Translations under genes and position numbers: made by a program | Shown: positions 3,948 to 20,861 of the stretch, piece after piece | Layout: every line of letters begins with the position of its first letter | Position numbering within the stretch: position 1 is the stretch's first letter | The notes under the pieces: model-generated | What the model saw: the letters and a program-made list of their open reading frames with translations, nothing else | What the model was told of the DNA's origin: nothing | Database searches by the model: none | Assembly: GCF_002305895.1 (NCBI RefSeq) | Contig: NZ_CP022203.1 | Coordinates: 3,388,501-3,452,500 of the forward strand | DNA from: Corallococcus macrosporus DSM 14697 | GTDB lineage: Bacteria > Myxococcota > Myxococcia > Myxococcales > Myxococcaceae | Direction of reading: 5' to 3' | DNA length: 64,000 bases

Positions 3948-4418
3948 ATGCTTCCTGTTTTTGCGATAGTTGGACTTGGCGGCCTGCTCTGGTGGGCCAC
4001 AAGAAATGGCCATCCTAGTGCATTTATTAGTTTTGCGGCAGAAGATGCAAAATATCGGGACTATTTGGTGGAGCAGGCCAAGCGAGAAAGAACTCCGTTC
4101 AAATTCCAGGACCGCTCACTTCATGAGCCATTTAGCAACGCCTGGAAGACTCAGACTCGAGAGATAATCAAAAAATCGGATGTTATGATTGTGATGATTG
4201 GGGCTGATACGCACAGGGCAGAGGGCGCTTTATGGGAAATTCGCACGGCCCGCGAGGAAGGGGTTTATGTTTTTGGAGTTCATATTAGCAAGAATTCGAA
4301 GGGGAAAATTCCCAAGGAGCTTCATTTTTGTCGTGTTGTCGAGTGGAGCCACGACGGGATCGCTGAAGAGTTGAGTCGAGCTGAACTCTATCGCAAGCGG
4401 AAGATGGCTAGAGAGTGA
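3948..4418 (+). CDS. Membrane-anchored TIR-like protein
   Basis: A 156-aa protein with an N-terminal hydrophobic segment (about residues 1-17) followed by a TIR-like domain of the DUF1863/ThsB type. It has beta-A AFISFA, an acidic AEDAKYRDYLVEQAK helix, WKTQTREIIKKSDVMIVMIG, and GALWEIRTAREE, whose Glu is in the position expected for the catalytic/NAD-contacting Glu of TIR enzymes. The start is well supported: GGAGGG at 3935-3940 lies 7 bases before the ATG. It is a paralogue of the TIR gene at 5070-5453 (shared FISFA, WKT, IVM, GALWE). Its last 31 bases overlap the convergent membrane-protein gene. In Thoeris, ThsB TIRs make an NAD-derived signal after phage sensing; the same role here is inference. 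Confidence 0.75.
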   Translation: MLPVFAIVGLGGLLWWATRNGHPSAFISFAAEDAKYRDYLVEQAKRERTPFKFQDRSLHEPFSNAWKTQTREIIKKSDVMIVMIGADTHRAEGALWEIRTAREEGVYVFGVHISKNSKGKIPKELHFCRVVEWSHDGIAEELSRAELYRKRKMARE

Positions 4419-5065
4419 TAGAGCTGAACTGACGCGGCTACGAGTATTCCTAAGTGCAGGGCGAAGAATACCCACGGAACCCAGGGCTCAATGGCGGTGA
4501 ATGGAAGGTATTTTTTTTTGTCCTTCCCTTCTCCCAGCGCGGTCCATTCTGCTGCAAAGAGGCGTAGTGGTAGGTATTCTTCTATCGCATGGATGACGTC
4601 GAATTTTCCTTGATTGATGCCTCTGTAGGATCTGAGCAGGCGGTTCCATGAGTAGCAGAGCGACAGCCCCGCCAGTCCAACTCCGACATGCCATTGAATG
4701 GCTGAGTTGGGAGTGCCTTGGGGCCAGGCGATTCCGAGTAATCCTATGAGAGCCGTGTTGATCGTGAGAAAGAATGTGTTCGCATGCTGACGGCGTTCGC
4801 TGACTTTATCCATTAGTTCTATGTACATTTTGTATTGGTCCAGTAGATGTGAGCGGTATTCGGCCCCATACTCTTCGGAGGGGGCGGCTAATATTTTTAT
4901 TGATGCGTTGCTGTTGTTTTTTGTCGGGTTTGACGTGTTTGACGTGTTTGACGTGTTTTTGTTGTTGGGTTGAATTGTGTTGTGGTTTTGTTCTTTTGTG
5001 AGGGGCTTGGTAGGGCGTTCGCTGCGGGAAGATTCACTGCGGGAAGATCTGCGTCGTTTTGCCAT
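4388..5065 (-). CDS. Multi-pass membrane protein, candidate effector of the TIR module
   Basis: A 225-aa protein with a basic and Asn/Ser/Thr-rich N-terminal tail (residues 1-56), a charged amphipathic segment (YRSHLLDQYKMYIELMDKVSERR), then hydrophobic segments at about 93-113, 125-143 and 194-218. It resembles small bacterial proteins annotated as RipA-family or SLATT-like (2TM, conflict-system) membrane proteins; the assignment is by eye. The ATG at 5065 lies 4 bases after the stop of the TIR gene upstream, so the two are a translational pair; an in-frame TTG at 5095 is an alternative start. There is no strong ribosome site of its own. It would fit the membrane-disrupting effector of a TIR-signalling abortive-infection system (inference). 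Confidence 0.7.
   Translation of the reverse strand: MAKRRRSSRSESSRSERPTKPLTKEQNHNTIQPNNKNTSNTSNTSNPTKNNSNASIKILAAPSEEYGAEYRSHLLDQYKMYIELMDKVSERRQHANTFFLTINTALIGLLGIAWPQGTPNSAIQWHVGVGLAGLSLCYSWNRLLRSYRGINQGKFDVIHAIEEYLPLRLFAAEWTALGEGKDKKKYLPFTAIEPWVPWVFFALHLGILVAASVQLYHSLAIFRLR
4932..4958. repeat. Three tandem copies of a 9-bp unit inside the membrane-protein gene
   Basis: GACGTGTTT is repeated exactly three times (4932-4940, 4941-4949, 4950-4958), coding for the Thr-Ser-Asn repeat in the N-terminal tail. Unit length is a multiple of three, so copy-number change would alter the tail without breaking the frame. Confidence 0.85.
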
Positions 5066-5069
5066 GGCG

Positions 5070-5453
5070 TTAGAGTCGGGTGATGAAGTTGGCAATGCCC
5101 TGCCAATTCCAAGGGATTATGCGTATGCCAAGGAGTTCAAATGGAACGGAGCTGTCATCTGAGTAGGCCCATACCCCTATGACGGGAATCCGCTCCTCAA
5201 GAGCACATCGGACTTCCCAAAGAGCTCCACTGGAGCGTTCGGTGTTTTTACTCACCATGACGATGAGGCCGTCGCAGCCGCGGATTTTGGTTCGGCAGTT
5301 GGTTTTCCACTGGCTGTCCCAAGGAGTTTTTACGGACATGTCTACGAAATGGAATGGACTGTGAGCGCCTCTTGCTTGACCCACTAGGAAATCACGAGCC
5401 CAAGTATCTTCGGGGACTGCAAAGCTGATAAAGAGTCGATTGTTTCGCGCCAT
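5070..5453 (-). CDS. TIR-like protein (ThsB/DUF1863 type)
   Basis: A 127-aa single-domain TIR-like protein. Visible elements are RLFISFAVPED (beta-A with acidic turn), the WKTNCRTKIRGCDGLIVMVS helix-strand and GALWEVRCALEERIPVIGVW, containing the conserved Glu. The domain has no membrane segment, unlike its paralogue at 3948-4418. ATG 5453 was chosen; an in-frame TTG at 5462 adds three residues, and neither has a strong ribosome site. The stop is 4 bases before the membrane-protein start, making a TIR plus membrane-protein operon. The Thoeris-like pairing (TIR signal producer plus effector) is inference from domain content. Confidence 0.75.
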   Translation of the reverse strand: MARNNRLFISFAVPEDTWARDFLVGQARGAHSPFHFVDMSVKTPWDSQWKTNCRTKIRGCDGLIVMVSKNTERSSGALWEVRCALEERIPVIGVWAYSDDSSVPFELLGIRIIPWNWQGIANFITRL

Positions 5454-5904
5454 TGGTCTCAAATCTCGAATTTGGTGTGGTTCAAAGGGAAGTTCTAGGG
5501 GCGGAAATCCTACTTTAACCTATTGTGAATGTGGCGAACAAGCGGGGTTTGGGCAACTTGAGAATGAGGTGATGGCATTGTCTTTGATTCAGATGGGGCG
5601 CTCAAGGGTGCCGCTAGTGTTCGGCTGGCGGCTGCTGTGTGCAATGGCATTTGTGTTGTAGTTGGGGGTGTATCTGTTTTTAGGGGACGTCGTGCAGTTG
5701 GTGGATGGTGTGGTGATTTGCCTCGGCCTCTCTCGTTGTGGATGGGAGTGTAAATGCTTGGTCATTCTTGTGTATCTATGTGATTTTTTGATTGTGAGAC
5801 TTTTGGTTTTGCCGTTTCTTGTTTGGCTTGGCGGCACGCGCGTTGGTCGGATGGGTGGTGGCGGCCTTGAGTCGGCAGTGTAAGGCTGAATGTAGACTGT
5901 CGGA
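5454..5904. other. AT-richer non-coding stretch upstream of the TIR gene
   Basis: About 450 bases with no convincing gene. The short open frames here on both strands have unnatural composition (runs of Pro/Thr/Ser/Arg or of Val/Leu) and no ribosome sites. It must hold the promoter of the minus-strand TIR/membrane-protein pair. The last 90 bases (about 5820-5913) are GC-richer again. Confidence 0.4.
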
Positions 5905-5913
5905 AATTGGCGC
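5905..5913 (-). repeat. Right 9-bp inverted repeat of the island
   Basis: AATTGGCGC on the plus strand, the reverse complement of 3704-3712, and 6 bases before the STM4014-type stop codon (5920-5922 on the plus strand). Together the two repeats frame the whole AT-richer segment. Confidence 0.45.
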
Positions 5914-5919
5914 ATAATG

Positions 5920-7053
5920 TCATGTTGTGCGGAGGGCCTCGCGAATCTCCCACTCGTACACGGTGAGCCCGTCGCGGCGGAGGTTGGGGAGCAAATCTCC
6001 AAAGGCATTGGCTTCAATCACCCGGTGCCCGGTGAAGTGCTCCTCGTACATGAGGTCGATGCCCACGTGGAGGCAGTCATGGGACTTCGCCACCGTGCGG
6101 CAGCTCTCTATGGCGTCCGCGAGCTCATTCCGGGGGACCTCTGCGTGGAAGTCGTCCAGGTCGCCCCGCCAGCCGCCCAGGTGCAGGTTGGTGATGGGCC
6201 GCAGGCTCTGCCGCACCACCGTGAAGGCCGGCTCGCCGCGGACCATCAGCACGCGGCAGTCGAAGTAGTCGCCGCCCAGCCGCGCCTTGGGAATCGAGCG
6301 CTCCACCTGTGAGCCCTCGCGCAGCAGGTACGTGAGGATTTCATCCACCCGCTCGGGCTCCTCGATGCGGCGCACCTTCAGCGAGTTGTACCAGCCCGTC
6401 TTCGCCACTTCGATGGTGGTGGTCAGCGTGTCCGCCGAGCGCCCCCGCCGGTAGATGGCGAGGCACGACGCGGACGAGCCGCACGACACCTTCACGAAGA
6501 CCTCGCGGCAGTCCGCTTCTTCCATCCGCGCACGGAGTGATTCCACGTCCGTGACGCCTTCCAGGGCCTCTGGAACGGGCACGCCCAGGGCGGCGTAGCG
6601 GCGGGAGGTGATGCGCTTGTCGAAGAGGTCCGCGATGGCGGAGGGCTTCTGAAGGACGCGCCAGCGAGGGTGCGCGGTGAAGATGGCCTCCAGCTCCGCC
6701 AGGACGCGCAGGAAGCCCAGGTGATGCTGCCGGGGGCTGAGGATGCGGCCGTGGTCCTCGGGCAGCCGGTCCACCTGCTCCGGCGTGAGGACCGAGCAGC
6801 CGTGGCCCACGGCGTCCGCGTAGCCCCGCTTGAGCAGGGCCTTCTCCACGTCCCAGTTCTCCCCCGTGGAGTCGATACGGACCAGCGCCTCCGAATCCGG
6901 CAGGTCCGCCAGGAGGCCCGGTGCCGCCAGCAGCTCACGCCAGGCCACGACGTGGGCGGGGGAGAGGCCCTGGCGGGCCAGGGCCTCCTGAAAGAGCGCG
7001 ACGCGCCGGTTCTCCGGATTGCCGATGAGGATGAACGGAGGCGCGCCTGCCAT
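5920..7053 (-). CDS. STM4014-type ATP-grasp protein
   Basis: A 377-aa protein of the STM4014 family with an ATP-grasp-like architecture. It has an N-terminal Rossmann-like part (FILIGNPENRRVALFQEAL), a central segment with EVFVKVSCGSSASC (ATP-binding Lys and glycine/serine loop), RVLMVRGEPAFTVVRQS, and a C-terminal metal-binding site GIDLMYEEHFTGHRVIEANAFGDLLPN with the Asp, Glu and Asn typical of ATP-grasp enzymes. ATP-grasp enzymes ligate carboxylates to amines or thiols, so it may modify a peptide or protein. It lies 6 bases downstream of the LRR/WGR gene on the same strand. In Salmonella these genes are clustered; here the STM4011-4013 half faces it across the island. Confidence 0.8.
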   Translation of the reverse strand: MAGAPPFILIGNPENRRVALFQEALARQGLSPAHVVAWRELLAAPGLLADLPDSEALVRIDSTGENWDVEKALLKRGYADAVGHGCSVLTPEQVDRLPEDHGRILSPRQHHLGFLRVLAELEAIFTAHPRWRVLQKPSAIADLFDKRITSRRYAALGVPVPEALEGVTDVESLRARMEEADCREVFVKVSCGSSASCLAIYRRGRSADTLTTTIEVAKTGWYNSLKVRRIEEPERVDEILTYLLREGSQVERSIPKARLGGDYFDCRVLMVRGEPAFTVVRQSLRPITNLHLGGWRGDLDDFHAEVPRNELADAIESCRTVAKSHDCLHVGIDLMYEEHFTGHRVIEANAFGDLLPNLRRDGLTVYEWEIREALRTT

Positions 7054-7059
7054 GCGGCG

Positions 7060-8412
7060 TTACTCGCCCACCGCGGCGTAGCGGTAGTCCTCTTCGTACT
7101 CGCGCTGGTTGCCCACGTTGGCCTGGGGAATCGCCTTGGACAGCAGCGACTGGCCCTCGTCCGTCAGGATGTTCTCCGTGACGTCGAACTGCTTGAGGTG
7201 GGCGAAGGCCGCCGCCTTGTCGGCCAGCGCGCGCGCGCCCTCGGTCGTCAGGGTGCCCATGGAGATGTCCAGCTTCTCCAACTGCGGGAGCACCTTCGCG
7301 CCAGGCAGCGCCTGGGCGAGCGCGTCCGCGAACTCGGAGTTGCGCAGGCCGAGCTGCTTGAGGTTCGGCAGGCCCTTGCCGTCGAGGATGGGCTGGATGT
7401 CCTCCACGCCGCCCTCTGCGCCGTAGTTGTCGCTGCCGAACCACACCTCCAGGCGCTCCAGCTTCGGCCACTTCGCGTTGGCGATGGACTTGACCGCCCC
7501 CAGGGGCAGGCCGCCCGTCTCCACGGTGAACTCACGCAGCTCGGGCAGGTCCACGTCGCCCAGCTCCAGCTCGCCGCCGCGCAGCCGCAGCTTGCGCAGG
7601 TCGGGCAGCAGCTTGAGGGCGCCGGAGATGTCGTGCAGGTATGTCCAGGAGATCTCCGTCTCGTCCGGGTACTGGAAGTCGCCGAGGAACAGCTCCTGGA
7701 GCGTCTTCAAGCCACCCACCTCGACGATGGCATCGGCGACCCTGCTGTAGTGGTTCTCCTCGAAGTCCGTCATGCCCACCGTGAGCCCGCGGATGAAGCG
7801 GGCGGAGGGGTGCTTGAGCAGCGCCCCGACGGCCTCCACGACGTCGAACTCGGAGTCGTAGTCCTGCTTGGCCAGGCGCGCGGAGCGGATGAAGCCCAGG
7901 TGCCACTCCAGGGAGATCTCCTTCGACTTCACGCCGTCCGCCAGCTCGCCGAGCAGCAGCGTCTGGTACTTCTTGATGTGCGCGGTGGCCTTGCGCTTCA
8001 GGTCGCTGGCCTCCGTGCCGCTGGCCTGCGCGGCCGCGTGCTGGATGGCGATGAGCTCGCCGCGCGGGTCGCCCTGGCCCTGGAGCCAGTCGCTGTAGAC
8101 GAGGTACGCGTCCACGTTGTCCGGGTCCTTGAGGATGGCGGCCTCCAGCTCCGGGTTGGAGGCGGGCTCGTCACCGCCGCCGCCCTCACCGTCGTCGTCA
8201 TCGCCCTTGCCGGCCAGGACGTAGCCCTTCTTCTCCTTCTCGCGGACGAGCTTGTCGTGCTCCTTCTGGGCCTCGGCGGGGGAGCCGAAGGTCTGGGTCT
8301 TCTCCTGGCCGTCGGTGCCGATGCGGCCCCACCGCGCGGTGAAGCTGTTGCCGGAGAGGGTGATTTCCCAGAACTTGCTGGAGCTGCCTTCCTTGAACTC
8401 GTACCGCGGCAT
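7060..8412 (-). CDS. WGR-domain leucine-rich-repeat protein (STM4015-like)
   Basis: A 450-aa three-part protein. Residues about 1-75 are a WGR domain (FWEITL, ARWGRIGTDGQEKTQTFGS). About 95-140 is the short repeat-companion motif seen in many myxobacterial and planctomycetal LRR proteins (NPELEAAILKDPDNVDAYLVYSDWLQGQGDPRGELI). The rest is leucine-rich repeats (LPDLRKLRLRGGELELGDVDLPELREF, LPNLKQLGLRNSEF). A ribosome site (GAAGGACGG) precedes the ATG. It is 50 bases downstream of the vWA-like gene and 6 bases upstream of the STM4014 gene. STM4015 proteins are LRR proteins, so this is taken as the STM4015 counterpart; the WGR domain (in eukaryotes a nucleic-acid/PARP-associated domain) is an unusual addition. 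Confidence 0.8.
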   Translation of the reverse strand: MPRYEFKEGSSSKFWEITLSGNSFTARWGRIGTDGQEKTQTFGSPAEAQKEHDKLVREKEKKGYVLAGKGDDDDGEGGGGDEPASNPELEAAILKDPDNVDAYLVYSDWLQGQGDPRGELIAIQHAAAQASGTEASDLKRKATAHIKKYQTLLLGELADGVKSKEISLEWHLGFIRSARLAKQDYDSEFDVVEAVGALLKHPSARFIRGLTVGMTDFEENHYSRVADAIVEVGGLKTLQELFLGDFQYPDETEISWTYLHDISGALKLLPDLRKLRLRGGELELGDVDLPELREFTVETGGLPLGAVKSIANAKWPKLERLEVWFGSDNYGAEGGVEDIQPILDGKGLPNLKQLGLRNSEFADALAQALPGAKVLPQLEKLDISMGTLTTEGARALADKAAAFAHLKQFDVTENILTDEGQSLLSKAIPQANVGNQREYEEDYRYAAVGE

Positions 8413-8462
8413 GGCCCGTCCTTCGTCCGTTGCGCCGGGTGGGGCGCGTTGTGGAACGGACG

Positions 8463-9932
8463 CTAGAGAAGCCCTTGCGCAAGCTCAAGCGTTACCCCCA
8501 TCCACGCGTCCCACTCCGTCTTTCGAGAATCCAGGACTTCGCGCCTGCCCTGAAGGCCGCGGACGGACGGCACCGGGCCGCTGAGGTCCAGCAGGTGCAA
8601 CGCGACGCGTGCGTCAACGGGCGGCAACGACGCGTCGACGTGACGGCCCGCGTCGAGCAGCACCACGTCGACGCGCGCGCGCTTCGTGGTCGCCGCCGCC
8701 GTGTCCAGCACCTCCTCCAGCGAGGCGGCGGTGAGCACTTCGGCCGTGCCTCGGGCCCGCCATTCGCGCAGCAGCAGCTCGCAGAGGCCGCGCTCGGCAT
8801 CCAGGGGCGGTGCGTCCGCGCCCGGCGCGTGGAGGAAGACGGCTCGAAAGTGGAGCTCCTCACTGCCCAACCACTGGGAGAGCCGCCGCACGAGGCAGAG
8901 CAGCAGGCCCAGCGCCACCACGACCCGCTGCCAGCGCACCCCCGCGTCCTTCACGCGCGCATCCACGAGGTCCGGCGGCAGGACGAAGGTGATGACGCGG
9001 CGGCGGCGGACGGAGATGCTCTCGTCGCGCGTGTAGTAGAGGAGCTCTCCCTCCACGTAGCGCACGTCGAAGAGGTCCAGGTCGGGCTCGTCCTCCATGT
9101 AGACGAGCTCGGAGGTGACGAGGTTCTCCAGGCTGCCCACGTTGGACACGGAGGAGAATCCCCCCTGTGGGAAGGCGGCCTCGTCCTCCAGCGTCATGGG
9201 CAGGGGGGCGGTGGCGACGGGCCGGGCGCGCAGCTTGGGCGGCAGGCTCCGCGACAGGGCCTCCGCTGCCTCCACCGCCTGCTCCAGGGCCATCCGCTGG
9301 GCCTTGCCCTGAAGGTGCTCCAGGTTCTCCAGGGTGAAGGACTCCGCGTCGCCGAGCAGCGCCCGCGCGCGACGGGCCGCGCTCGCCAGGGCTTCGTAGC
9401 CTTCCGCGAGCCGCTCCAGCGCGGGACTGGCCCCTGTGTCGCGCAAGGCCGCGTAGCCACCTTGGAGCAGCTCCGCGGGCGGGCGCTCCAGGACGCGTCG
9501 GGCCAGGCCTGGGCTCACCGCGGTGCCCGCCGTGAAGCCCATCCGCATCAGCACACGCGATACGAGGAAGGCGATGCCTCGGGGCCGAAGCGCTTCGGGG
9601 AGACGCGCGAGGGCGGCGGAGACGGCCTCCAGGTGGGGCTCCGCCGCGAGCCGGGCCAGCACGTGGTCGTCATAGGCGCGCACCGCCGCGCGCAGCCGGG
9701 GCAGCGTGTCCGGCACGGGCGCGGAGGGCGCGAGCGGCACCCCCGCGACGAGCCGGCCCAGGTCCGCAATCAACGCGGGAGGGGGCAGGGCGGGCGACTC
9801 CGCGAGCGTGGCGAGGAGCCACGGCACGGCTGAATCCAACGTGCCGGCCGCGAGGTGCTCGTGCCGTATCAGGCACAGCCCCGCGCACAGCCAGCGCTCC
9901 GCGTCCTGGGGACTCCGCAGCTCCGTGCTCAT
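8463..9932 (-). CDS. vWA-like component of an FtsH-vWA-MoxR ternary system
   Basis: A 489-aa protein directly downstream (7-base gap) of the MoxR gene. The N-terminal two thirds are helical and Ala/Leu/Arg-rich. The last 190 residues alternate strands and helices as a von Willebrand A fold would: RRRVITFVLPPDLV, a long helix (VRWQRVVVALGLLLCLVRRL), LHFRAVFL, a helix, RVDVVLLDAG, VALHLLDLSG. The metal-site DxSxS expected after strand 1 is not there; LPPDLV stands in its place. The gene order MoxR-vWA is classical, which is the main reason for the call. In such systems the vWA protein is thought to recruit the MoxR ATPase to a client. An unrelated scaffold is possible. Confidence 0.6.
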   Translation of the reverse strand: MSTELRSPQDAERWLCAGLCLIRHEHLAAGTLDSAVPWLLATLAESPALPPPALIADLGRLVAGVPLAPSAPVPDTLPRLRAAVRAYDDHVLARLAAEPHLEAVSAALARLPEALRPRGIAFLVSRVLMRMGFTAGTAVSPGLARRVLERPPAELLQGGYAALRDTGASPALERLAEGYEALASAARRARALLGDAESFTLENLEHLQGKAQRMALEQAVEAAEALSRSLPPKLRARPVATAPLPMTLEDEAAFPQGGFSSVSNVGSLENLVTSELVYMEDEPDLDLFDVRYVEGELLYYTRDESISVRRRRVITFVLPPDLVDARVKDAGVRWQRVVVALGLLLCLVRRLSQWLGSEELHFRAVFLHAPGADAPPLDAERGLCELLLREWRARGTAEVLTAASLEEVLDTAAATTKRARVDVVLLDAGRHVDASLPPVDARVALHLLDLSGPVPSVRGLQGRREVLDSRKTEWDAWMGVTLELAQGLL

Positions 9933-9939
9933 CCGCGAC

Positions 9940-10962
9940 TCACGAGAGGCCCAGCAGCCGGGGCACCTTCTCCTCCAGCAGGTCGATCTCCTCGCGCGTC
10001 TCTCCCAGGTAGGAGAGGAGCTGGAGGTCCTGCCGCTCCACCGCGCCGCCGTGGAAGATCCACGCCCGCGTCCGCAGCAGGCGGTAGAGCTTCACCAGCT
10101 TGCGGTCGCTGATGAACACGCCGTCCTCGCGCGTCAGTGTCTGCACCACGCGGCGGAACTCCCGCAGCAGGTCATCGCGGAAGAACAAGTCCCGGTCGCG
10201 CAGCTCGCGGCCATCCGGACCCGTCTCGCGCTTGCCCATCATCAGCGTCAGGTAGCGGTGGGCCTTGAGCACGTCGTCCAGCGTGGCGTGTCCTTCCGCC
10301 CAGGGTTTCTGGTTCATCTCCCGGTGCGTCTGTGAGTCCAGGCCGGAGTCCAGCAGCTCCAGGAAGTAGCGGTCCTGCACCGGCCGGCACGCGGCCTTGA
10401 GGCAGAAGCGGTCCTTGAGGGCGCCCAGCTCGGCGTGCTCCGGCAGCTCGTTGGTGGCGGCGAACAGCACCTTCAGCTTCACCGGCTGCGGCGCGCCGTC
10501 CTGGTAGAACTTGCGCTCGTTGATGACGGTGAGCAGCGCGTTGAGGATGGCGGAGCTGGCCTTGAAGACCTCATCCAGGAACACCAGCCGCGCGGTGGGC
10601 AGCTTGCCGCCCTCGCGCCGGATGTAGCGGCCCTGGCGCAGCAGGTTGATGTCGATGGGGCCCAGCACCTCCGACGGCTCGGTGAAGCGCGTCAGCAGGT
10701 ACTCGAAGTAATCCTCGTTGGGGATGCGCAGCGCGTCCCGGAACTTGAGCACCAGGTCCGACTTGGCCGTTCCCGGCGGGCCCACCAGCAGCAGCGGCTC
10801 CTGCGCCACCGCCGCCACCGTCATCAGGTCCACCAGCGTCTGCTTGCCCACGAAGTGGCGGCCCAGCGCCAGGCGGAAGCGGTTGAGGCGCTCGCGCAGG
10901 CCGTGGGCCTCGCTGGCGAGCGCGTCGAGCGACAGCTCGGAGATGGCGGGAAGACTGCTCAT
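9940..10962 (-). CDS. MoxR-type AAA+ ATPase
   Basis: A 340-aa MoxR-family AAA+ ATPase. Walker A is GPPGTAKSD (about residues 61-69), Walker B is LVFLDEVFKAS, followed by ILNALLTVINERKF and sensor-1 FAATNELPE, all hallmarks of the family. A helical lid ends the protein. It starts in an ATGA overlap with the 1090-aa gene upstream and is followed after 7 bases by the vWA-like gene. MoxR/vWA pairs act as chaperones that remodel or insert metal into client proteins. Here it would be the second AAA+ engine of the operon beside the FtsH-like protease. Confidence 0.93.
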   Translation of the reverse strand: MSSLPAISELSLDALASEAHGLRERLNRFRLALGRHFVGKQTLVDLMTVAAVAQEPLLLVGPPGTAKSDLVLKFRDALRIPNEDYFEYLLTRFTEPSEVLGPIDINLLRQGRYIRREGGKLPTARLVFLDEVFKASSAILNALLTVINERKFYQDGAPQPVKLKVLFAATNELPEHAELGALKDRFCLKAACRPVQDRYFLELLDSGLDSQTHREMNQKPWAEGHATLDDVLKAHRYLTLMMGKRETGPDGRELRDRDLFFRDDLLREFRRVVQTLTREDGVFISDRKLVKLYRLLRTRAWIFHGGAVERQDLQLLSYLGETREEIDLLEEKVPRLLGLS

Positions 10963-13900
10963 GTGCGCTCCTCCAACTCCCGATGGATGCGCCGTCGCAC
11001 CAGGAACTCGTCTTCATCCAGCCAGCTTCGCGCGCGCGCGCCGGTGCCCTGCGCCACCTCCACGTGGCCCTGCACCAGCGCGTCCGCCAGCTCCACCACG
11101 GAGAGGCAGAAGTGGCTGTTGGTGTTGTAGCTGTCCGTGACGTTCGGCAGCCCTTCGGAGATGCGCGCCAGCCCCGGAAGCGCCAGCTCCACGGGGGCAT
11201 GCGCCAGCGCGTTCGCGAGGCTGCGCATCAAGGCCAGCCGCTCCGGCAAGCCGCCCTTCGCCGTGCCCAGTGATTCGAAGGCGGCGTCGAACACGTCGAC
11301 AGCCTCGGCCGTGCGCCCCTGCATGGACAGTCCTGCCGCAACGCCGAGCCTCGCCGTCAAAGGTGTCTTTGGGCCCGTCAGTCGCTCTTGCGCCGCGTCC
11401 ACCAGCTCGGCGGCTTCGCGAGACAGGCCCACCCGGCGCAGGCCCCGCAGGCTCACCCCGAGGATGCCTTGTCCCCAGGCGGGCGACGTGGGGGCCAGCG
11501 CCGTGAGCACCGTGCGCAGCCGCGCCGCCAGCTTCATCGCGTGGTCCGCGCGGCCGAAGAGGGCCGCCAGCGTCAGCGCGTCTCCCAGCAGCACGGCCTG
11601 GGCTTCACCGGGCAGCGCCTCCATCGACGCGACGAGCCGGTCCAATACGGGGAGCGCGCGCGCCGGAGCGACGCGGGGCAACGTGTCCAGCAGCCCTCCG
11701 ATGAGCCGCTGGCGCTCCGCTGCGGCCTGGCTCATCTCGGTGGCCCGGCTCGTCAGGGCTTCTACCTGCGCGGCCACCTGGGCCGGGTCCTTCAAGTCGC
11801 GAAGGGTCGCGAACTCCTCGCCGCGCAAGTCGCGCGCGCCGCGACCGAAGGCCCTCGCGGGGTCGAGCCGCTCGCTGGGCTCCAGCAGCGCCGAGGCCTG
11901 CCGCAGCCGGTCCACCTTGTACCGCTGGAAGGTGCCCAGGGCGTTCAGCTCGGCGGCGATGTCGGCGGGCAGCGGCGCCTCGGGCGGCTGACCTTCCAGG
12001 GCCTGCGCCACGCGCGCGCCGTAGGCACGGGAGAGGAAGCCGTGGATGACCTCCGTCGCGTCGACAGCGCCCGCCGCCGCGGATGCCAGGGCCCGGGCCC
12101 GGTCCGCCTGCCCGAGCCGCGCCAGTCCCACGGCGAAGACGTAGCGCACGTAGGCCAGCGTGAGGGCGGGCGCCGCTTCGATGGACGAGCGGCGGCGGGG
12201 CGTGGTCTCGAAGCGCTCCAGCAGGGCTTCGAGCTGCGACACCACGCGGGGCACATGGGCCGAATCCGTGCCGCCTCGAAGGAAGCGCGGCACGTCTCTC
12301 GCGAGGGACAGGCCGCGCTGGAGCATCTCCAGCAGCCGGTCGCCCGCGCGTGCCAGACCGAGCGCGTCCCCGCCCGACAGCGTGTCGAGCGCCGTCCGCG
12401 TCAGCCAGAGCGACCGGACATCGAGCTCCGCGTCATGCCGGTCCAGCCACCGTTGGACGGAGGCCACGTCGACCGGCGCGGGGGCGCTCGGGTCCCGCAC
12501 CGCGCGCACCAGGCTGCTGGCGATGCCTCGCACGTCATCGCCCGTGGGCGCGGGGGACGCCATCCGTTCGGCGGGCGTGGCGCTTCCTTGTGACTCCGCA
12601 TCGGCCCAGCGCCGCGCGAGCTCCGTGGCCTCGGTGTCGGACGCGGACCACAGGGCGCGCGTCCAGCACAGGCTCGCGTCTCGTCCGCGGCCCAAGCGGC
12701 CATTCAGCTCCGCCATGCGCGTCCAGAGCTCCTGTCGCTGCGGCGAATCGGCGGGCACCTCCAGGGCCAGGAAGGACTTCTCCAGCGCGGTCAGCTCCTC
12801 TTCCACCGCGTCGGTCTGCGCGGGCGTGAGCGGCGCCAGGGAGGCGCCGCTGGGCGCGGGGTGCGCGACGCGGACGGCGACGATGGGGGGAGGGCTCGCG
12901 GGCGCCTCGGAAGGCGTCGTCGCCGCACGCCGGCCGCGGCGCGCGCTTCTTGGGCTTCGGTCGTCCTCCTCGTCCGATTGCACCGAGCGGGCCGCGGCCT
13001 GCCACTCACCCTCCGCCACTTCGAAGGCGGCGAAGTCGAAGCTCGCGCCCCGGACCCAAGGCATGAGCGCGTCGGCGTTGGCGTCCACGACGTAGTCCAC
13101 CCAGGTGTCGAGCGGCTGGAACGCGGACTCCGGCAGCCGCTCCGCGCGGAAGCCGCCGCCTCCGGTGGGGTGGAGCCACGTCACGGTGTCGGCCTGGGGC
13201 ACCAGCAACGCGCGCAGCCTGTCTCTGCGCACGGGCGGCTCCAGCAGCCCGTCACACGGCAGGAAGAGGTCCGCGAGCTGCGGCAGCGGCGCATACGCCA
13301 TGCCCGACAGGCCCAGCTCCGGTGGCCGTTCCCGGCCCGCCCGGGCGCGCAGCACGATGCACGGCGCCTCCAGCGGCCCCATGACAGCGAAGCGGAGCTG
13401 CGCGAGCAGCGGCTCCGGCAGCGTGTGGACCAGGGACTCCACCTGGGCGAGCGCGTCCTCTCGCAGCACCCAGAGGCTGGCGGGCTCGGTGCGAGCGGCC
13501 CGCGTGAGTCGCAGCGGCACCGTGAGCCGGCCCGGCGTGGGCGCGGGCGTCCAGTCCTCGCTGGGGGCGGGGAGCCGCAGGTCGGTGTGTTGGTACAGGT
13601 CCGTCCACGGGCCGTCCGGCGCGGTCAGCCACGGACCTTCGCCGCGGATGAGCAGCAAGGTCCCCACGGGCGCTTGCAGCGCGCGCGCGAGCGGATGCGT
13701 GTAGCCCACCTCCACCCAGACGGACTGTTGGCCCGGGACGGCGGGGACGAAGGCGCGCAGCGGCCCCGTGGTGTCCAGCGCGCTGGTCAGCGTGAAGTAG
13801 GGCGGCGCCACCGCGCGGAGCAAGGCACGCGGTCCGCTTCCCTTGGAGGATTGCGCGAAGCACACCTCCTGCCGGTCACATCCCAACCGCAGCATCTCGC

Positions 13901-14231
13901 CCGCAAGGGGCAGCAGGGCCTCCGCGCTCGGCGGCAGGAACAGCACCGGACCGGTGGGCGCGCTCTCCAAGGGCACGCGCCGCGCCCGCACCAGCTCCGC
14001 CCAGCAGAGGACCGGCGTGGCCTCCTTCGCGTGGGTTCGAGTCACCTGGACGCCCAGGGACGCGAGCCGCGCCAGCGCCTCCTCCGAGAGCCGCGCCTCC
14101 GGCACGACGTGGAGCGCGCCGTCGGGTGTCCGGTGGCAGCGGGCGGGAGCGGCCTGGACTTCAGCGGGGACGAGTCCGGAGGTCAGCGCCAGTTGGAGCG
14201 CCTCCTCACTGGTGAAGACGAGCATGGACAT
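10959..14231 (-). CDS. Large two-part scaffold protein of the FtsH/MoxR operon
   Basis: A 1090-aa protein of unrecognised family. Residues about 1-400 form a mixed alpha/beta region with conserved-looking blocks (VLVFTSEEAL-type N-terminus, DLFLPCDGLLEPPVRRDRL, ADTVTWLHPTGGGGF). About 405-470 is an acidic/Arg/Pro-rich linker (SDEEDDRSPRSARRGRR). The rest is all-helical with TPR-like spacing. The start is the ATG at 14231 in a TGATG overlap with the 88-aa gene; an in-frame TTG at 14234 is less likely. It ends in an ATGA overlap with moxR. Its place in the operon suggests the specificity or scaffold subunit, equivalent to the X domains defined for FtsH-vWA-MoxR systems (inference). Confidence 0.75.
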   Translation of the reverse strand: MSMLVFTSEEALQLALTSGLVPAEVQAAPARCHRTPDGALHVVPEARLSEEALARLASLGVQVTRTHAKEATPVLCWAELVRARRVPLESAPTGPVLFLPPSAEALLPLAGEMLRLGCDRQEVCFAQSSKGSGPRALLRAVAPPYFTLTSALDTTGPLRAFVPAVPGQQSVWVEVGYTHPLARALQAPVGTLLLIRGEGPWLTAPDGPWTDLYQHTDLRLPAPSEDWTPAPTPGRLTVPLRLTRAARTEPASLWVLREDALAQVESLVHTLPEPLLAQLRFAVMGPLEAPCIVLRARAGRERPPELGLSGMAYAPLPQLADLFLPCDGLLEPPVRRDRLRALLVPQADTVTWLHPTGGGGFRAERLPESAFQPLDTWVDYVVDANADALMPWVRGASFDFAAFEVAEGEWQAAARSVQSDEEDDRSPRSARRGRRAATTPSEAPASPPPIVAVRVAHPAPSGASLAPLTPAQTDAVEEELTALEKSFLALEVPADSPQRQELWTRMAELNGRLGRGRDASLCWTRALWSASDTEATELARRWADAESQGSATPAERMASPAPTGDDVRGIASSLVRAVRDPSAPAPVDVASVQRWLDRHDAELDVRSLWLTRTALDTLSGGDALGLARAGDRLLEMLQRGLSLARDVPRFLRGGTDSAHVPRVVSQLEALLERFETTPRRRSSIEAAPALTLAYVRYVFAVGLARLGQADRARALASAAAGAVDATEVIHGFLSRAYGARVAQALEGQPPEAPLPADIAAELNALGTFQRYKVDRLRQASALLEPSERLDPARAFGRGARDLRGEEFATLRDLKDPAQVAAQVEALTSRATEMSQAAAERQRLIGGLLDTLPRVAPARALPVLDRLVASMEALPGEAQAVLLGDALTLAALFGRADHAMKLAARLRTVLTALAPTSPAWGQGILGVSLRGLRRVGLSREAAELVDAAQERLTGPKTPLTARLGVAAGLSMQGRTAEAVDVFDAAFESLGTAKGGLPERLALMRSLANALAHAPVELALPGLARISEGLPNVTDSYNTNSHFCLSVVELADALVQGHVEVAQGTGARARSWLDEDEFLVRRRIHRELEERT

Positions 14232-14497
14232 CAAGCCTTCTGGGGGACCTTCTCGGAGGCGTCCTCGGGGGGGGCGGTGGGCTCGGCCGACTGGCCCGAC
14301 GGCGTGTCGCGCCGGACGATGACGCGGCCCAGCTCGGAGGCCTTCAGCGTGCCACCCTGGATGAGCGAGTCCACGAGCCGGCGGTGCTCGTCCTCGTGCT
14401 CCATGGGCAGCGCGTCCGCGTCGCTCTCGTACTGGATGATGACGTCCTTGCGGCCCGTCGCCGGGTCCACCTGGAGGCGGAGGATGAGGCTAGCCAA
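14231..14497 (-). CDS. Small protein of the FtsH/MoxR operon, TTG start
   Basis: An 88-aa protein with a beta-strand-rich N-terminus (ASLILRLQVDPATGRKDVIIQYESDADALP) and a disordered Pro/Glu/Ser tail. The start is a TTG at 14497-14495: a clean AAGGAG lies 7 bases upstream, inside the end of the FtsH-like gene, and the frame overlaps that gene's stop by 8 bases. The N-terminal part resembles small partners (DUF2997-like or ubiquitin-fold-like) that accompany FtsH-type ATPases; I cannot settle which. The stop overlaps the start of the 1090-aa gene (TGATG). Confidence 0.7.
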   Translation of the reverse strand: MASLILRLQVDPATGRKDVIIQYESDADALPMEHEDEHRRLVDSLIQGGTLKASELGRVIVRRDTPSGQSAEPTAPPEDASEKVPQKA

Positions 14498-16610
14498 GCG
14501 CGGGCTCCTTCTTCGGCGCCGCGGTCGCGGGCACCAGGTGGGTGAAGGCCTCGCGGTCCAACACCTTGCGTTCAATGAGCAAATCCCTCAGGGCCACGAG
14601 CCGCTCCTTCTCGCGCCGGAGGATATCCCGGGCCCGGGCGCGCTGGACGGCCAGCACCTCCTGGATGGCGGCCTCCAGCGTGCTCCGCGTCGCGTCGGAC
14701 AGGGCGTGCCGCTCCGCCTGCCGCCCCGGCGCGTCATAGCGGCGCACGGGCACGCCGTCGCCGCCCATGCCCAGGTCCTCCACCAGCTCGCGCGCAATCT
14801 CCGTGGCGCGCTCCAGGTCATGCGCGCTGCCCAGGGAGAGGTCATCCAGCAGCAGCGCCTCCGCCTCCCGGCCGCCGAAGAGCATGCAGATGCTGTCGAG
14901 CAACTGGCCTCGCGTGACGACGTAGCGGTGCGCCGGGTCCGCGTACTGCACGTGGCCCAGCGAGCCCGCCAGGTCGCCCCGGATGCTGATGCGGTCAATC
15001 GCGGGCGCGTGCTCGCAGAAGAGGGCGCACACCGCGTGGCCCGCCTCGTGGGTGGCCACCACGCGCTCCTCGGTGGGCGTCAGCTCCGGCCGGTCCAGGA
15101 ACTCCGTGAGGGCGCGCTCCACGTCCACCGCCTCGGTGGGGCCCTGGGCGCCTTCGCGCAGCCGCCGCCGCGCGAGCGCCCGGCACAGCGCCTGGATGTG
15201 GTCACCGGAGAAGCGCGTGCCGGTGCCCTCCACCCGGTCGCCCGTGCGCTTCACCGCGTAGTCCAGCGCGCGCTCCGTCATCTCCAGGCCCAGCTTCTGG
15301 TCGTAGATGGACAGGATGGCGCGCCGGTCCGCGCTGTTGGGGTAGGGGATGCAGAGCTGGAACTCGAAGCGGCCCGGGCGCAGCAGCGCCGGGTCCAGGG
15401 ACTCCACGAAGTTGGTGGTGCCCACCACGAAGACGAGCTCCTCCTTGCGGAACCCGTCCATCTCCGTGAGGAGCTGGTTCACCATGGAGTGCTCCACGCC
15501 CGAGCCGGTGTACGTGCCACGCGCCGACGCGAAGGAGTCCAGCTCGTCGAAGACGATGATGCTGGGCGCCGCCTGCCGCGCGCGGACGAAGATCTGGCGG
15601 AGGTTCTCCTCGCTCTCGCCCACCCAGCGGCTCTTGAGCTCGGGGCCGCTCACCACCTGGACGGCCGCGCCCAGCGCGGAGGCCATGGCCTTGGCGAAGA
15701 GCGTCTTGCCGGTGCCGGGCGGGCCCCAGAAGATCATCCCGCGCGGAAGCAGCGCCTCCACGCGCTTCACGGCCTCCGGGTCGCTCAGCGTGTCCTTGTG
15801 GGACAGGACGTCCAGAAGCTCCTGCTGGAGCCGCTGCTTCACCTTGGCGTAGCCGCCGATGTCCGCGTGCAGCTCCAGCTCCGGGACGCTGAGCGCGCCG
15901 GTGAGCGTGGCCGAGCGCAGCTGCGCATACGCGGGCTTCGGGTTGGCGGGGTAGTCCTCGCCGGTGATGGCGCCCAGCAGCCGCCGCAGGCGCACGGCGT
16001 TGACGCCGGAGACGTGCTTGTAGAGCGCGTAGGGCTGAAGGCCCCGGCCGAACTTGCGGCACTCGCGCTGGGTGATGAGGTGGCGGAGCCTGTCCCGCCC
16101 CACGCCGAGGATGCTCTCCTTGTGGGGGAAGAGGTTCTCGATGACGCGCGGCACGGCGAAGGACGGGTCCTTGAAGCCGACCCAGACCATCTCCGGGTTT
16201 TCGTACAGCAGGGGGATGACCTCGCGCGCCTCGCTGGTGAGCCCGCCGCTGCTGGTGGTGAGCAGGTCCAGGTGCGGCAGCACGACGATGCGCTCCCGCA
16301 CCGCGCCCCGCACCGCGTCCCGGAGCTGCGCGATGAGCGTGGCCATCATGGAGGGCGCCGGCATGCCCGGGGGCGGCTCCTGCGCGGTGCGGCCGTCCAG
16401 GTAGAGGAACTGCTTGCCGTCCTTCTTCAGCCTGTCCCGCAGGCACTTGTAGAAGTACGGCGTCAGCTCCTTGTCCGCCTCCACCATGACGGGCAGGCCG
16501 CGCAGCAGCGCCTCGCAGACGCGGTTCAGCTCGGCGGGGTAGGCGGCCTCGACGGCGGCGAAGGGGGACAGCTCGGTGGGCAGCGACTCCTCGGGGATGC
16601 GCTGGCTCAT
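14490..16610 (-). CDS. FtsH-like AAA+ zinc metalloprotease (soluble)
   Basis: A 706-aa AAA+ protease. Residues about 1-230 are a domain not found in housekeeping FtsH, and there are no transmembrane helices. The AAA module has Walker A GPPGTGKT (about 294), Walker B IIVFDELD, and the second region of homology ALLRPGRFEFQL with its Arg. The M41 protease domain has the zinc motif HEAGH (about 520) and the third ligand Asp in SLGSAHDLERAT, so it should be catalytically active. It overlaps the upstream 188-aa gene by 4 bases and the downstream 88-aa gene by 8. In FtsH-vWA-MoxR systems such a protease is thought to degrade targets delivered by the partner subunits. It is not the essential FtsH: anchor lost, new N-terminus, no typical FtsH neighbours. 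Confidence 0.9.
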   Translation of the reverse strand: MSQRIPEESLPTELSPFAAVEAAYPAELNRVCEALLRGLPVMVEADKELTPYFYKCLRDRLKKDGKQFLYLDGRTAQEPPPGMPAPSMMATLIAQLRDAVRGAVRERIVVLPHLDLLTTSSGGLTSEAREVIPLLYENPEMVWVGFKDPSFAVPRVIENLFPHKESILGVGRDRLRHLITQRECRKFGRGLQPYALYKHVSGVNAVRLRRLLGAITGEDYPANPKPAYAQLRSATLTGALSVPELELHADIGGYAKVKQRLQQELLDVLSHKDTLSDPEAVKRVEALLPRGMIFWGPPGTGKTLFAKAMASALGAAVQVVSGPELKSRWVGESEENLRQIFVRARQAAPSIIVFDELDSFASARGTYTGSGVEHSMVNQLLTEMDGFRKEELVFVVGTTNFVESLDPALLRPGRFEFQLCIPYPNSADRRAILSIYDQKLGLEMTERALDYAVKRTGDRVEGTGTRFSGDHIQALCRALARRRLREGAQGPTEAVDVERALTEFLDRPELTPTEERVVATHEAGHAVCALFCEHAPAIDRISIRGDLAGSLGHVQYADPAHRYVVTRGQLLDSICMLFGGREAEALLLDDLSLGSAHDLERATEIARELVEDLGMGGDGVPVRRYDAPGRQAERHALSDATRSTLEAAIQEVLAVQRARARDILRREKERLVALRDLLIERKVLDREAFTHLVPATAAPKKEPALG

Positions 16611-17173
16611 ACGCGCACCTTGATGGTGAGCGAGCCCGTCGCCGCGTCCTCGTGCACCTCCTCGACGGTGCCGAGCTGCCCGGCGCGCACCTTGAGCGCC
16701 TCCGCCGTCACCTTGTTGGAGATGGCGTCCAGCTCCGACTTGAGGTCGCGCAGCCGCCCTTCGAGCTTCTGCGTCACCTGCTGGCGCAGCGTCTCCGTGG
16801 CGACGTCCGCCGCGTCCTCCAGCCTGGCGCGCGCCAGGTCCTGGGCCCGCAGCTTCGCCTCCTCCACGGCGTGCGGGTTCTCCACGGCCAGCTCGCCCCG
16901 GGCCTTCAGCTCCACCTCCTGCTCACCGCTGAGCGTGACGCTGACGTCGCCGGTGGTGACGTCGATGGCGACGCGGACGCCATCCGCCTCCGTGCGCAGG
17001 GCGACGTCTCCCTCTTGCGTGAAGCCCCGGTTCGCCAGCTCCGCCGCGAGCAGCCCGGCCAGCTCCGCTTGCGAAAGGAGGGGGAGCAGCTCCAGCTTGG
17101 AGCAGAGGCCGTCCTCGGCCTGGACCACGCGGTTGAGGGACTCGGAGACGGAGACTCGGTAGGCGCGGCTCAT
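16607..17173 (-). CDS. 188-aa accessory protein of the FtsH/MoxR operon (DUF1257-like)
   Basis: A 188-aa protein. The N-terminal half has strands (AYRVSVSES, VALRTEADGVRVAIDVTTGDVSVTL) and the middle is a long charged helix (EEAKLRAQDLARARLEDAADVATETLRQQ), ending in strands (GSLTIKVRV). The overall pattern and its place just before a Ycf46/FtsH-type ATPase recall the DUF1257/Ycf35 group. It begins in an ATGA overlap with the 361-aa gene upstream and ends in an overlap with the protease start. It is a probable adaptor or sensor of the complex; the biochemical role is unknown. Confidence 0.65.
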   Translation of the reverse strand: MSRAYRVSVSESLNRVVQAEDGLCSKLELLPLLSQAELAGLLAAELANRGFTQEGDVALRTEADGVRVAIDVTTGDVSVTLSGEQEVELKARGELAVENPHAVEEAKLRAQDLARARLEDAADVATETLRQQVTQKLEGRLRDLKSELDAISNKVTAEALKVRAGQLGTVEEVHEDAATGSLTIKVRV

Positions 17174-18255
17174 GGGGCGCTCCCGGCGGTGGAAGGTGGA
17201 GGTGCGGCGGCAGCGCCGCTGGCGCTGGTGAGGGCGGTGGCCAGGTGCCGGGCGTGGTCCTCGGCGCGGCGGAAACCGGCTTCGCCGAAGGCGCTCCATT
17301 CGGACAGCAGGCGCTGGGCGGTGTCGTAGTCGTCGTCGAAGAAGCGCACCGCGCGGTGTTCGGCGTCCCACCGCGCCAGCCGGCCCAGGATGCGGAGGAC
17401 GGCGGCGGCGGCCCGGGCCGCCTCGGCGCGCGAGGACAAGGTCGCCGCGGTGGACAGCCCCTCCACCCAGCGCGAGGCGGGCTGCTCCAGCAACGGGCGC
17501 GCCGCTTCGAGCAGGAAGCCCGCCAGGTCTCTCCGGCCCGCGCCATCCACCGCGTCCAGGAACGCGGCGAGCACGGCCTCCTGCGCGGTGCCCAGGGCCA
17601 GGGCCTCGGCGGGGGAGGCGATGGTGCGCTTGGACTCCTCCAACGCACGCCAGCGCTGCGCGAGCTCCAGGCGCAGCGCCTCCAGCAGCCACGCGCCGTC
17701 CGCCAGCAGCGGCGCGAAGGCGGCGGCGTCGAGCTTTGGGCGGTGCGCCCCGAACTGCTCCGGGAAGCCCAGCCAGCAGAGCGCGGAGCGGCGGAAGAGG
17801 GGCTGGGCGCCCAGGGCCGGCGCGCAGGGGCTGCCGGCCACCAGGCGGCAGCACAGAAACAGGACGAGCTCGTCGGCGAGCGTGGGCGCGCCGTCCTCGT
17901 GGAGCGGCATGGCCCCATGCGCCGTCAGGGGCTGCTCCAGCAGCCACCGCAGGACGAGGAAGGAGCGCGGCGAGAAGCGCAGGGCGGGCGGCGCGTGCCG
18001 TTCCCACAGCCGGCCGGAGCGCGGCTGCCCGTCGCGCGCGGTGCGCTGCCGCCGCCAGCCGCCACACCGGACGAGCGCGAGCACGCCGCCCTTGGCGAGC
18101 GTGTCCCGCAGGACGTGCATCGCGCCGGGGCTGAGCTTCGCCGGGACGTCGTGCCGGTTGCGGAGCAGGTCCTCCACGGGTGCGTACTGGCCCAGGCCGA
18201 CGACGGCGCGGGCGAGCGTGAGCAGCTCGAGCTCGGTCGGCGCGACATGAATCAT
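17170..18255 (-). CDS. Unknown 361-aa protein of the FtsH/MoxR operon
   Basis: A 361-aa, mainly helical protein of no recognised family, with clustered Trp/Cys/Leu (LVLRWLLEQPL, LVLFLCCRLVAG, ALCWLGFPEQFG) and a Pro/Ala-rich disordered end. The ATG at 18255 (MIHVAPTELELL) is in an ATGA overlap with the radical SAM gene upstream; the frame is open further 5' but only through that gene. It ends in another ATGA overlap. The strict coupling says it is made with the radical SAM protein and the protease. It could be the substrate or scaffold of the radical SAM enzyme; nothing in the sequence proves this. Confidence 0.7.
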   Translation of the reverse strand: MIHVAPTELELLTLARAVVGLGQYAPVEDLLRNRHDVPAKLSPGAMHVLRDTLAKGGVLALVRCGGWRRQRTARDGQPRSGRLWERHAPPALRFSPRSFLVLRWLLEQPLTAHGAMPLHEDGAPTLADELVLFLCCRLVAGSPCAPALGAQPLFRRSALCWLGFPEQFGAHRPKLDAAAFAPLLADGAWLLEALRLELAQRWRALEESKRTIASPAEALALGTAQEAVLAAFLDAVDGAGRRDLAGFLLEAARPLLEQPASRWVEGLSTAATLSSRAEAARAAAAVLRILGRLARWDAEHRAVRFFDDDYDTAQRLLSEWSAFGEAGFRRAEDHARHLATALTSASGAAAAPPPSTAGSAP

Positions 18256-18863
18256 GGGCGGAGCCGGTCGGCGAGCGCGGGCCAGCCGTTGATGACGAGC
18301 CTGCCGCCGACGAAGTGCACCTCCGCCGTGTTGGGCGCGGTGAAACACGCGTCATCCGGCGCGTACCGGGCGGTGAAGAAGTGCATCACCTGGTTGCGCG
18401 AGCCAATCCACCGCCGCGCCGTCTCCGGCTGCTCCTTCTCGAAGCGGCCGTCCACCAGCAGGTCCACCGTGGCGAGCAGCCGCGCCACGTCCTCGCTTCC
18501 CTGGGCCCGCAGCTCCGCGAGCGTGTAGCCGGTGAAGACCATGACGCTCAGCCCTGCGGCGCGGACGCGCTCGCACAGCAGCGCGGCGGGGCCGGCCTGC
18601 GAGAAGGGCTCGCCGCCCAGCAGGGTGAGGCCTTCGATGCCGGGCGTGGCCAGCACCTGCCGGGCCAGCGCCTCCACCGGCTCCACCGTGCCGCGCTCGG
18701 TCGCGAACATCTCCGGGTTGCAGCACCCCGCGCAGCGCAGGGGGCAGCCCTGGACCCACAGGGCGTAGCGCACACCCGGGCCCTCCGCCTCCGTGCGAGC
18801 GACTTTCTGGGCAATCCGGAGCGTCGGGCCGGAGCGGGAGGATGTGCCGTCTGCGAGGACCAT
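18252..18863 (-). CDS. NrdG-like radical SAM protein heading the FtsH/MoxR operon
   Basis: A 203-aa minimal radical SAM protein of the activase type. The motif CX3CX2C is C40-C44-C47 (GCPLRCAGC), with LTLLGGEPF as SAM-binding motif and VMVFTGYT and VDLLVDGRFE strands typical of NrdG/PflA. The ATG at 18863 has GGGAG about 7 bases upstream; further upstream in-frame codons are Arg/Pro-rich and unlike the domain. No anaerobic class III ribonucleotide reductase or pyruvate formate-lyase gene is nearby. It therefore probably activates or modifies a component of this operon. First gene of the operon, so the promoter should lie in 18864-19070. Confidence 0.85.
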   Translation of the reverse strand: MVLADGTSSRSGPTLRIAQKVARTEAEGPGVRYALWVQGCPLRCAGCCNPEMFATERGTVEPVEALARQVLATPGIEGLTLLGGEPFSQAGPAALLCERVRAAGLSVMVFTGYTLAELRAQGSEDVARLLATVDLLVDGRFEKEQPETARRWIGSRNQVMHFFTARYAPDDACFTAPNTAEVHFVGGRLVINGWPALADRLRP

Positions 18864-19070
18864 GAAGCGCTCCCAGCATGCCAGCAGCGGCGGGGCAGGG
18901 GGAGCACCCGGGCAGCTCCCAAGTCTCAAGACGGGCTCGCCGCGGGTTGATACCTTCCGCCGCGCCGCCGTTCATGACTTTTGCCTACATGGCTGAAGTG
19001 ATGGTTAGCGGATCTTCCCGCGCCGCAATTTGTCAACGTCGCTTCATCCCTCAAGTAGACTGCGGTGGTC

Positions 19071-20861
<1,791 letters not shown>

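Follow-up and report, generated by a model that had tools for sequence, protein, structure and literature searches.

FtsH ternary systems of the simple type, as described by Kaur, Burroughs, Iyer and Aravind (2020; PMC7159879), include an adjacent radical SAM protein (rSAM) that is predicted to modify a peptide effector. In the present paper we analyse a run of eight genes on the minus strand, at positions 8463–18863 of a 64,000-nt stretch of DNA from Corallococcus macrosporus DSM 14697 (hereafter the window), in which genes for an FtsH-type protease, a MoxR ATPase and a divergent vWA protein are accompanied by an rSAM gene, and we compare it with loci in other genomes, which are designated by L-numbers. 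The run fits the description of Kaur et al. (2020), and thus both the system and its link to an rSAM were already known; the comparison shows, in addition, that the rSAM is a near-constant component of the system, paired with the X6 protein, and not an occasional or variable effector.

Results

All eight open reading frames of the minus-strand run proposed in the initial annotation are present, and seven of the eight proteins match Pfam families that were made for the FtsH ternary system or that represent its core enzymes. From the rSAM end onward they are the rSAM (18252–18863; 203 aa; Fer4_12, PF13353, E 1.8e-33), the fvmX6 protein (17170–18255; 361 aa; PF20004, E 8e-69), the fvmX5 protein (16607–17173; 188 aa; PF20003, E 6.6e-49), an FtsH-type AAA+ zinc protease (14490–16610; 706 aa; AAA, PF00004, and Peptidase_M41, PF01434), the fvmX3-analog (14231–14497; 88 aa; PF20002, E 5.1e-30), the fvmX7 protein (10959–14234; 1091 aa with a TTG start; PF20005, E 3.5e-76), a MoxR AAA+ ATPase of the bpMoxR family (9940–10962; 340 aa; PF20030, E 2.8e-60, 203 bits against a cut-off of 27) and the divergent vWA protein (8463–9932; 489 aa; ivWA-helical_N and ivWA, PF19996 and PF19997, both above cut-off). 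The four fvm proteins all score above the Pfam cut-off, the X7 domain being confined to residues 2–384, i.e. the N-terminal third of its protein. Recognition of the locus as an FtsH–vWA–MoxR ternary system with fvm X domains is thereby borne out, and it is a myxobacterial ortholog of this predicted ATP-driven protein-remodelling/protease system.

The linkage of the rSAM to this system was assessed in a set of 195 Myxococcota genomes, with fvmX5 counted above cut-off and the rSAM family at an E-value of 1e-20 or lower. fvmX5 was found in 52 of these genomes and the rSAM family in 64, including all 52, compared with 12 of the 143 genomes that lack fvmX5 (Fisher's test, 4e-36, a value that ignores kinship). 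GTDB genomes were also scanned for the rSAM, which gave 80 best loci whose neighbourhoods were read with component profiles. The order rSAM–X6–X5–FtsH–X3-analog–X7–MoxR–vWA recurs at many of these 80 loci, in Myxococcota as well as in metagenome-assembled genomes of Planctomycetota, and FtsH lies on the same strand within 8 kb of the rSAM in 35 of the 55 loci that have at least 8 kb downstream. The steadiest neighbour of the rSAM is X6, which follows it in 66 of 77 loci and stands beside it even where FtsH is elsewhere (e.g. L135, L142 and L159), indicating that rSAM and X6 form a unit that is tied to the system and is not always in its operon. The co-occurrence in every fvmX5 genome and the gene order kept in Planctomycetota show that the rSAM belongs to the ternary system, as had been suggested from the window alone.

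That suggestion had gone further, in assigning to the rSAM a glycyl-radical activation step. The rSAM carries a CxxxCxxC motif whose cysteine residues (C40, C44 and C47) are invariant in 15 aligned sequences, with C48 as an additional cysteine. Were it an activase of the NrdG or PflA type, generating a glycyl radical in one of the system's proteins, this would agree with its best named models, which are NrdG and pyruvate formate-lyase (PFL) activase, with its closest solved structure, which is the PFL activating enzyme, and with its small size and lack of a SPASM domain. However, it scores 99.2 bits against the NrdG equivalog, below the cut-off of 126.1, and the genome (a single contig of 8.97 Mb) contains neither NrdD (NRDD, PF13597) nor a Gly_radical protein (PF01228), in searches that were positive in several control genomes. 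In addition, the glycyl-radical motif RVxG[FWYHS] is absent from all eight operon proteins, and X6 is predicted to be helical and not to form the barrel of a glycyl-radical enzyme. With neither enzyme in the genome and no such motif in the operon, the glycyl-radical step is unsupported; a target in any known family of glycyl-radical enzymes was rejected, and we regard an activase of this type as highly improbable. Given the closest solved structure, activase-like chemistry may nevertheless act on another target.

The junctions between the genes are tight, as the initial annotation had noted. Six of the seven overlap by 4–8 bases (4, 4, 4, 8, 4 and 4 from the rSAM end onward), the exception being MoxR to vWA, where a 7-base gap separates the genes; the overlap between X3-analog and X7 is 4 bases with the TTG start of X7 and 1 base with an ATG start. 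The first four overlaps are identical in nearly all compared members of the genus, and that between X7 and MoxR is 4 bases in every one, which indicates that the pattern is not due to chance and that the close packing has been selected, or has at least been inherited. Equal amounts of the products cannot be deduced from it, and the fixed proportion that the annotation had read from the overlaps is conjectural. At one compared locus, L169 (2948–5413 and 10031–12264), FtsH and the X3-analog are opposite in strand to rSAM–X6–X5, showing that the system can split into two units.

The AAA+ and M41 zinc-site motifs of FtsH are intact, with GPPGTGKT (Walker A) at residue 296, IIVFDE at 351 and HEAGH at 521. 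Its N-terminal ~240 residues have no Walker A motif, and the protein shows no membrane-type hydropathy peak and hence no predicted transmembrane segment. The P-loop of MoxR is GPPGTAKS at residue 61. In the likely first strand of the vWA protein, neither DxSxS nor another clear metal site was seen; DESIS is found at residue 303, and a conserved YTRDES lies before this strand, so that a loss of the metal-site residues is no more than a possibility. Median identities within the genus are 67–74% for X6, X7 and vWA, compared with 91% for FtsH and 95% for MoxR.

The AF2 model of X6 is all-helical (pLDDT 91.5) and has no clear match in the PDB, the best Foldseek E of 0.62 and the best VIA Z of 7.6 being in the chance range for helical models. 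For fvmX5, a PDB match to the TRIM5 coiled coil (E 0.005) was read as coiled-coil bias. The X3-analog is modelled, with low to moderate confidence (pLDDT 61.8), as a beta–beta–alpha–beta fold with a disordered tail. Residues E33, H34, E35 and H38 in its predicted helix (EHExxH, residues 33–38) are invariant in 31 FtsH-type copies, and the motif is reduced to EHR in stand-alone X5–X3-analog pairs. On account of the charged neighbouring residues and this loss, we do not claim a zincin site; the motif is not the canonical zincin one and marks a possible metal site.

The size of the X3-analog bears on the published prediction for the simple type (PMC7159879), in which the rSAM would act with a short effector peptide as the peptide-toxin or signalling branch of a conflict system. 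As the sole stand-alone gene of fewer than 100 aa in the run, the X3-analog is by size the only fit to a separate peptide-effector gene. However, its core is conserved, it contains no cysteine, the run is almost gapless and so leaves no room for an additional peptide gene, and no zincin peptidase gene was detected in it with Pfam. A peptide branch of this kind is therefore improbable at this locus, although less so than a glycyl-radical activase.

The run is flanked on its upstream side by a divergent gene for a PilZ–sigma-54 activator (19065–20861), which is kept as a neighbour of the rSAM in many members of the genus. A sigma-54 promoter between the two genes was considered and rejected, as the best site matches 8 of 12 positions, a score that ~500 sites in the window attain. 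A WGR–LRR protein and an ATP-grasp-like protein (5920–8412), also conserved neighbours in the genus, are encoded directly downstream of the run and on its strand. The G+C content falls to 0.505 at 4001–6000, the rest of the window being mostly ~0.7.

A second genomic context of the rSAM

Ycf46 and Ycf35 are conserved in cyanobacteria and in many algal plastids; to our knowledge no role has been assigned to the module formed by the Ycf46-like AAA protein, DUF1257 (Ycf35) and DUF2997. We found that the same rSAM family also lies beside the genes of this module in both Myxococcota and Planctomycetota, a point that is possibly new. DUF1257 is present in 9 of the 12 Myxococcota genomes that are fvmX5-negative and rSAM-positive, as against 9 of the 131 that are negative for both. 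The rSAM gene is convergent to an AAA, DUF1257 and DUF2997 cluster in L111–L114 (with a cysteine-rich protein between AAA and DUF1257 in L112), and in Planctomycetota the genes AAA, DUF1257, DUF2997 and rSAM lie on one strand in that order (L222 and L223), and L213 has DUF1257, DUF2997 and rSAM. The corresponding cyanobacterial cluster, duf2997–ycf35–fed7, has a ferredoxin in place of the rSAM (PMC4284462). Conversely, X5–X3-analog pairs without an adjacent FtsH (L072, L205–L208 and L251) are laid out like DUF1257–DUF2997.

Further variants were seen at three other loci. The rSAM is immediately preceded in L244 and L247 by a DUF1257-like protein that carries a long helical insertion, and in L245 DUF2997 is followed by a shorter protein, with a C-terminus like that of the DUF1257-like proteins of L244 and L247, and then by the rSAM. 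Together with a large coiled-coil-like protein, the DUF1257-like protein makes up a third rSAM context (L244, 6758–9983; L247, 6355–13001; L245, 6533–14000), near which an SF1 helicase was recognized by Pfam in L245 and by eye in L247; this may be an undescribed system.

Comparison of the fvmX5 and DUF1257 profiles gave a profile–profile score of 22.6, against 10.3 ± 1.7 for column shuffles (maximum 14.5 in 120), a lenient null, and 15.7 for the reversed profile, and the two align in register at both C-termini. The HH-suite probability is only 5–11%, and the signal, weak even with deeper alignments, is absent with shallow ones. Adding the DUF1257-like proteins of L244, L245 and L247 raised the score slightly, to 25.2 (P 0.0027); these proteins alone scored 18.2 against X5, under the shuffle maximum of 24.5. 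The X5 protein has no Pfam match to DUF1257 (PF06868), nor the X3-analog to DUF2997 (PF11211), and for the latter pair the profile score is no better than shuffles, so that kinship by sequence was rejected for the X3-analog in spite of the parallel gene arrangement. fvmX5 and DUF1257 may share a common origin, with a chance, as we judge it from the profiles, not far short of even.

We tentatively consider, with slightly less than half of our credence, that the AAA–DUF1257–DUF2997 module and the FtsH ternary system are variants of a single ancient machine. Such a machine would combine an AAA+ motor, a pair of small partner proteins and a dedicated Fe–S protein, either a radical SAM enzyme or another, with FtsH–X5–X3-analog–rSAM equivalent to AAA–DUF1257–DUF2997–rSAM and with the protease, MoxR–vWA, X6 and X7 as additions. 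The rSAM tree, in which the AAA–DUF1257-linked sequences fall into two groups with an unresolved root and base and the L242 row is a faulty translation, was not used as evidence. Ycf46 is not mentioned in the main text of Kaur et al. (2020; PMC7159879), and whether the link between the ternary system and Ycf46 has priority over that paper is uncertain.

Discussion

The interpretation that we consider the most probable, by a modest measure, is that the locus encodes a simple-type ternary system in which the rSAM and X6 modify a small subunit that gates the FtsH protease. The MoxR–ivWA chaperone pair would be joined to the soluble FtsH-type AAA+ protease via X7, X5 and the X3-analog, and the rSAM and X6 would jointly modify one of the small proteins of the complex, the X3-analog and X5 being the only small candidates in the run. 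This modification would set the state of the protease, licensing or gating it; upon a signal, MoxR–vWA would remodel the assembly and FtsH would then unfold and cut its substrate. The parts, their motifs and their linkage are what the analysis shows, and it is the modification, the substrate and the gating that we infer.

Several observations weigh against this proposal. The X3-analog lacks cysteine and its tail, acidic or proline-rich, is unremarkable and unlike known radical-SAM peptide substrates, and we found no paper reporting an experimental function for any member of the system. An opposite-strand gene lies between MoxR and vWA in several congeners (L058, 12301–13833; L060, 13277–13732; L089, 2825–3280; L095, 13593–14048), and L095 also has a 370-aa gene between the X3-analog and X7 (8077–9186); these inserted genes indicate that the run is not a single transcription unit in all relatives. 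Finally, separation of the rSAM gene from the ternary genes in relatives, which the initial annotation had named as a finding that would speak against its view, does occur, as 20 of the 55 long loci have no FtsH within 8 kb of the rSAM. It does not extend to the genomes as such, in that 15 of the 16 checked genomes with the rSAM apart from FtsH carry fvmX5 elsewhere, mostly beside FtsH.

A different role, that of housekeeping quality control and not defence, would see the system as an elaborated Ycf46–Ycf35–DUF2997 module for maturing or clearing one particular protein, perhaps an Fe–S or redox protein. fvmX5 is single copy in each of the 27 genus members searched, many of which also have the same sigma-54 activator and WGR genes in the flanks, and this leans towards a core function in the genus. 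The same rSAM family in AAA–DUF1257–DUF2997 operons and the ferredoxin gene that accompanies the cyanobacterial DUF1257 and DUF2997 genes also favour such a role, as do the PADLOC models, whose matches were limited to generic AAA and a weak radical SAM, and viral contigs, in which no fvmX5 was found. In contrast, other genera of this family lack fvmX5, which argues for an accessory role, and the homology between X5 and DUF1257 is weak; the faster divergence of X6, X7 and vWA relative to the ATPases is compatible with either view. We therefore regard the housekeeping role as unlikely overall, although it is a more serious contender than the peptide branch. The gated protease that we prefer may be triggered by infection, as in a conflict system, or by a cue from within, be it stress or development.

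Comparison with known systems

With the simple-type system of Kaur et al. (2020; PMC7159879) the run shares a MoxR with a GXXXTAKS P-loop, an ivWA fused to a helical N-terminus, an FtsH whose N-terminal region lacks Walker A and may be the catalytically dead second AAA domain of that type, fvm X domains and the adjacent rSAM. It differs in that no separate peptide gene was recognized in the run, although no search was aimed at NEFF1, and in that the rSAM, near-constant and paired with X6 here, is an occasional effector there. The Ubl-conjugation type described in the same paper has the FtsH, MoxR and vWA core in common with our locus, but among the eight proteins Pfam detects no beta-propeller–vWA, JAB, E1, E2, RING, caspase or zincin domain. 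The discovery as such is modest, and its value lies in clarifying that the rSAM is a regular part of the system and does not belong to any known family of glycyl-radical activators: with the NrdG and PflA activases it shares a Fer4_12-type domain, the CxxxCxxC motif and the absence of SPASM, whereas it falls below the NrdG cut-off in a genome without a glycyl-radical enzyme. The Ycf46/DUF1257/DUF2997 module resembles the run in its AAA+ ATPase, its partners of roughly 110–190 and roughly 70–90 aa and, at some loci, the same rSAM family, and departs from it in an AAA protein without the M41 protease and with no MoxR, vWA, X6 or X7 detected alongside. If the link between the two is true, a radical SAM maturation step becomes a hypothesis for Ycf46 and Ycf35 as well, and Myxococcus genetics could address both.

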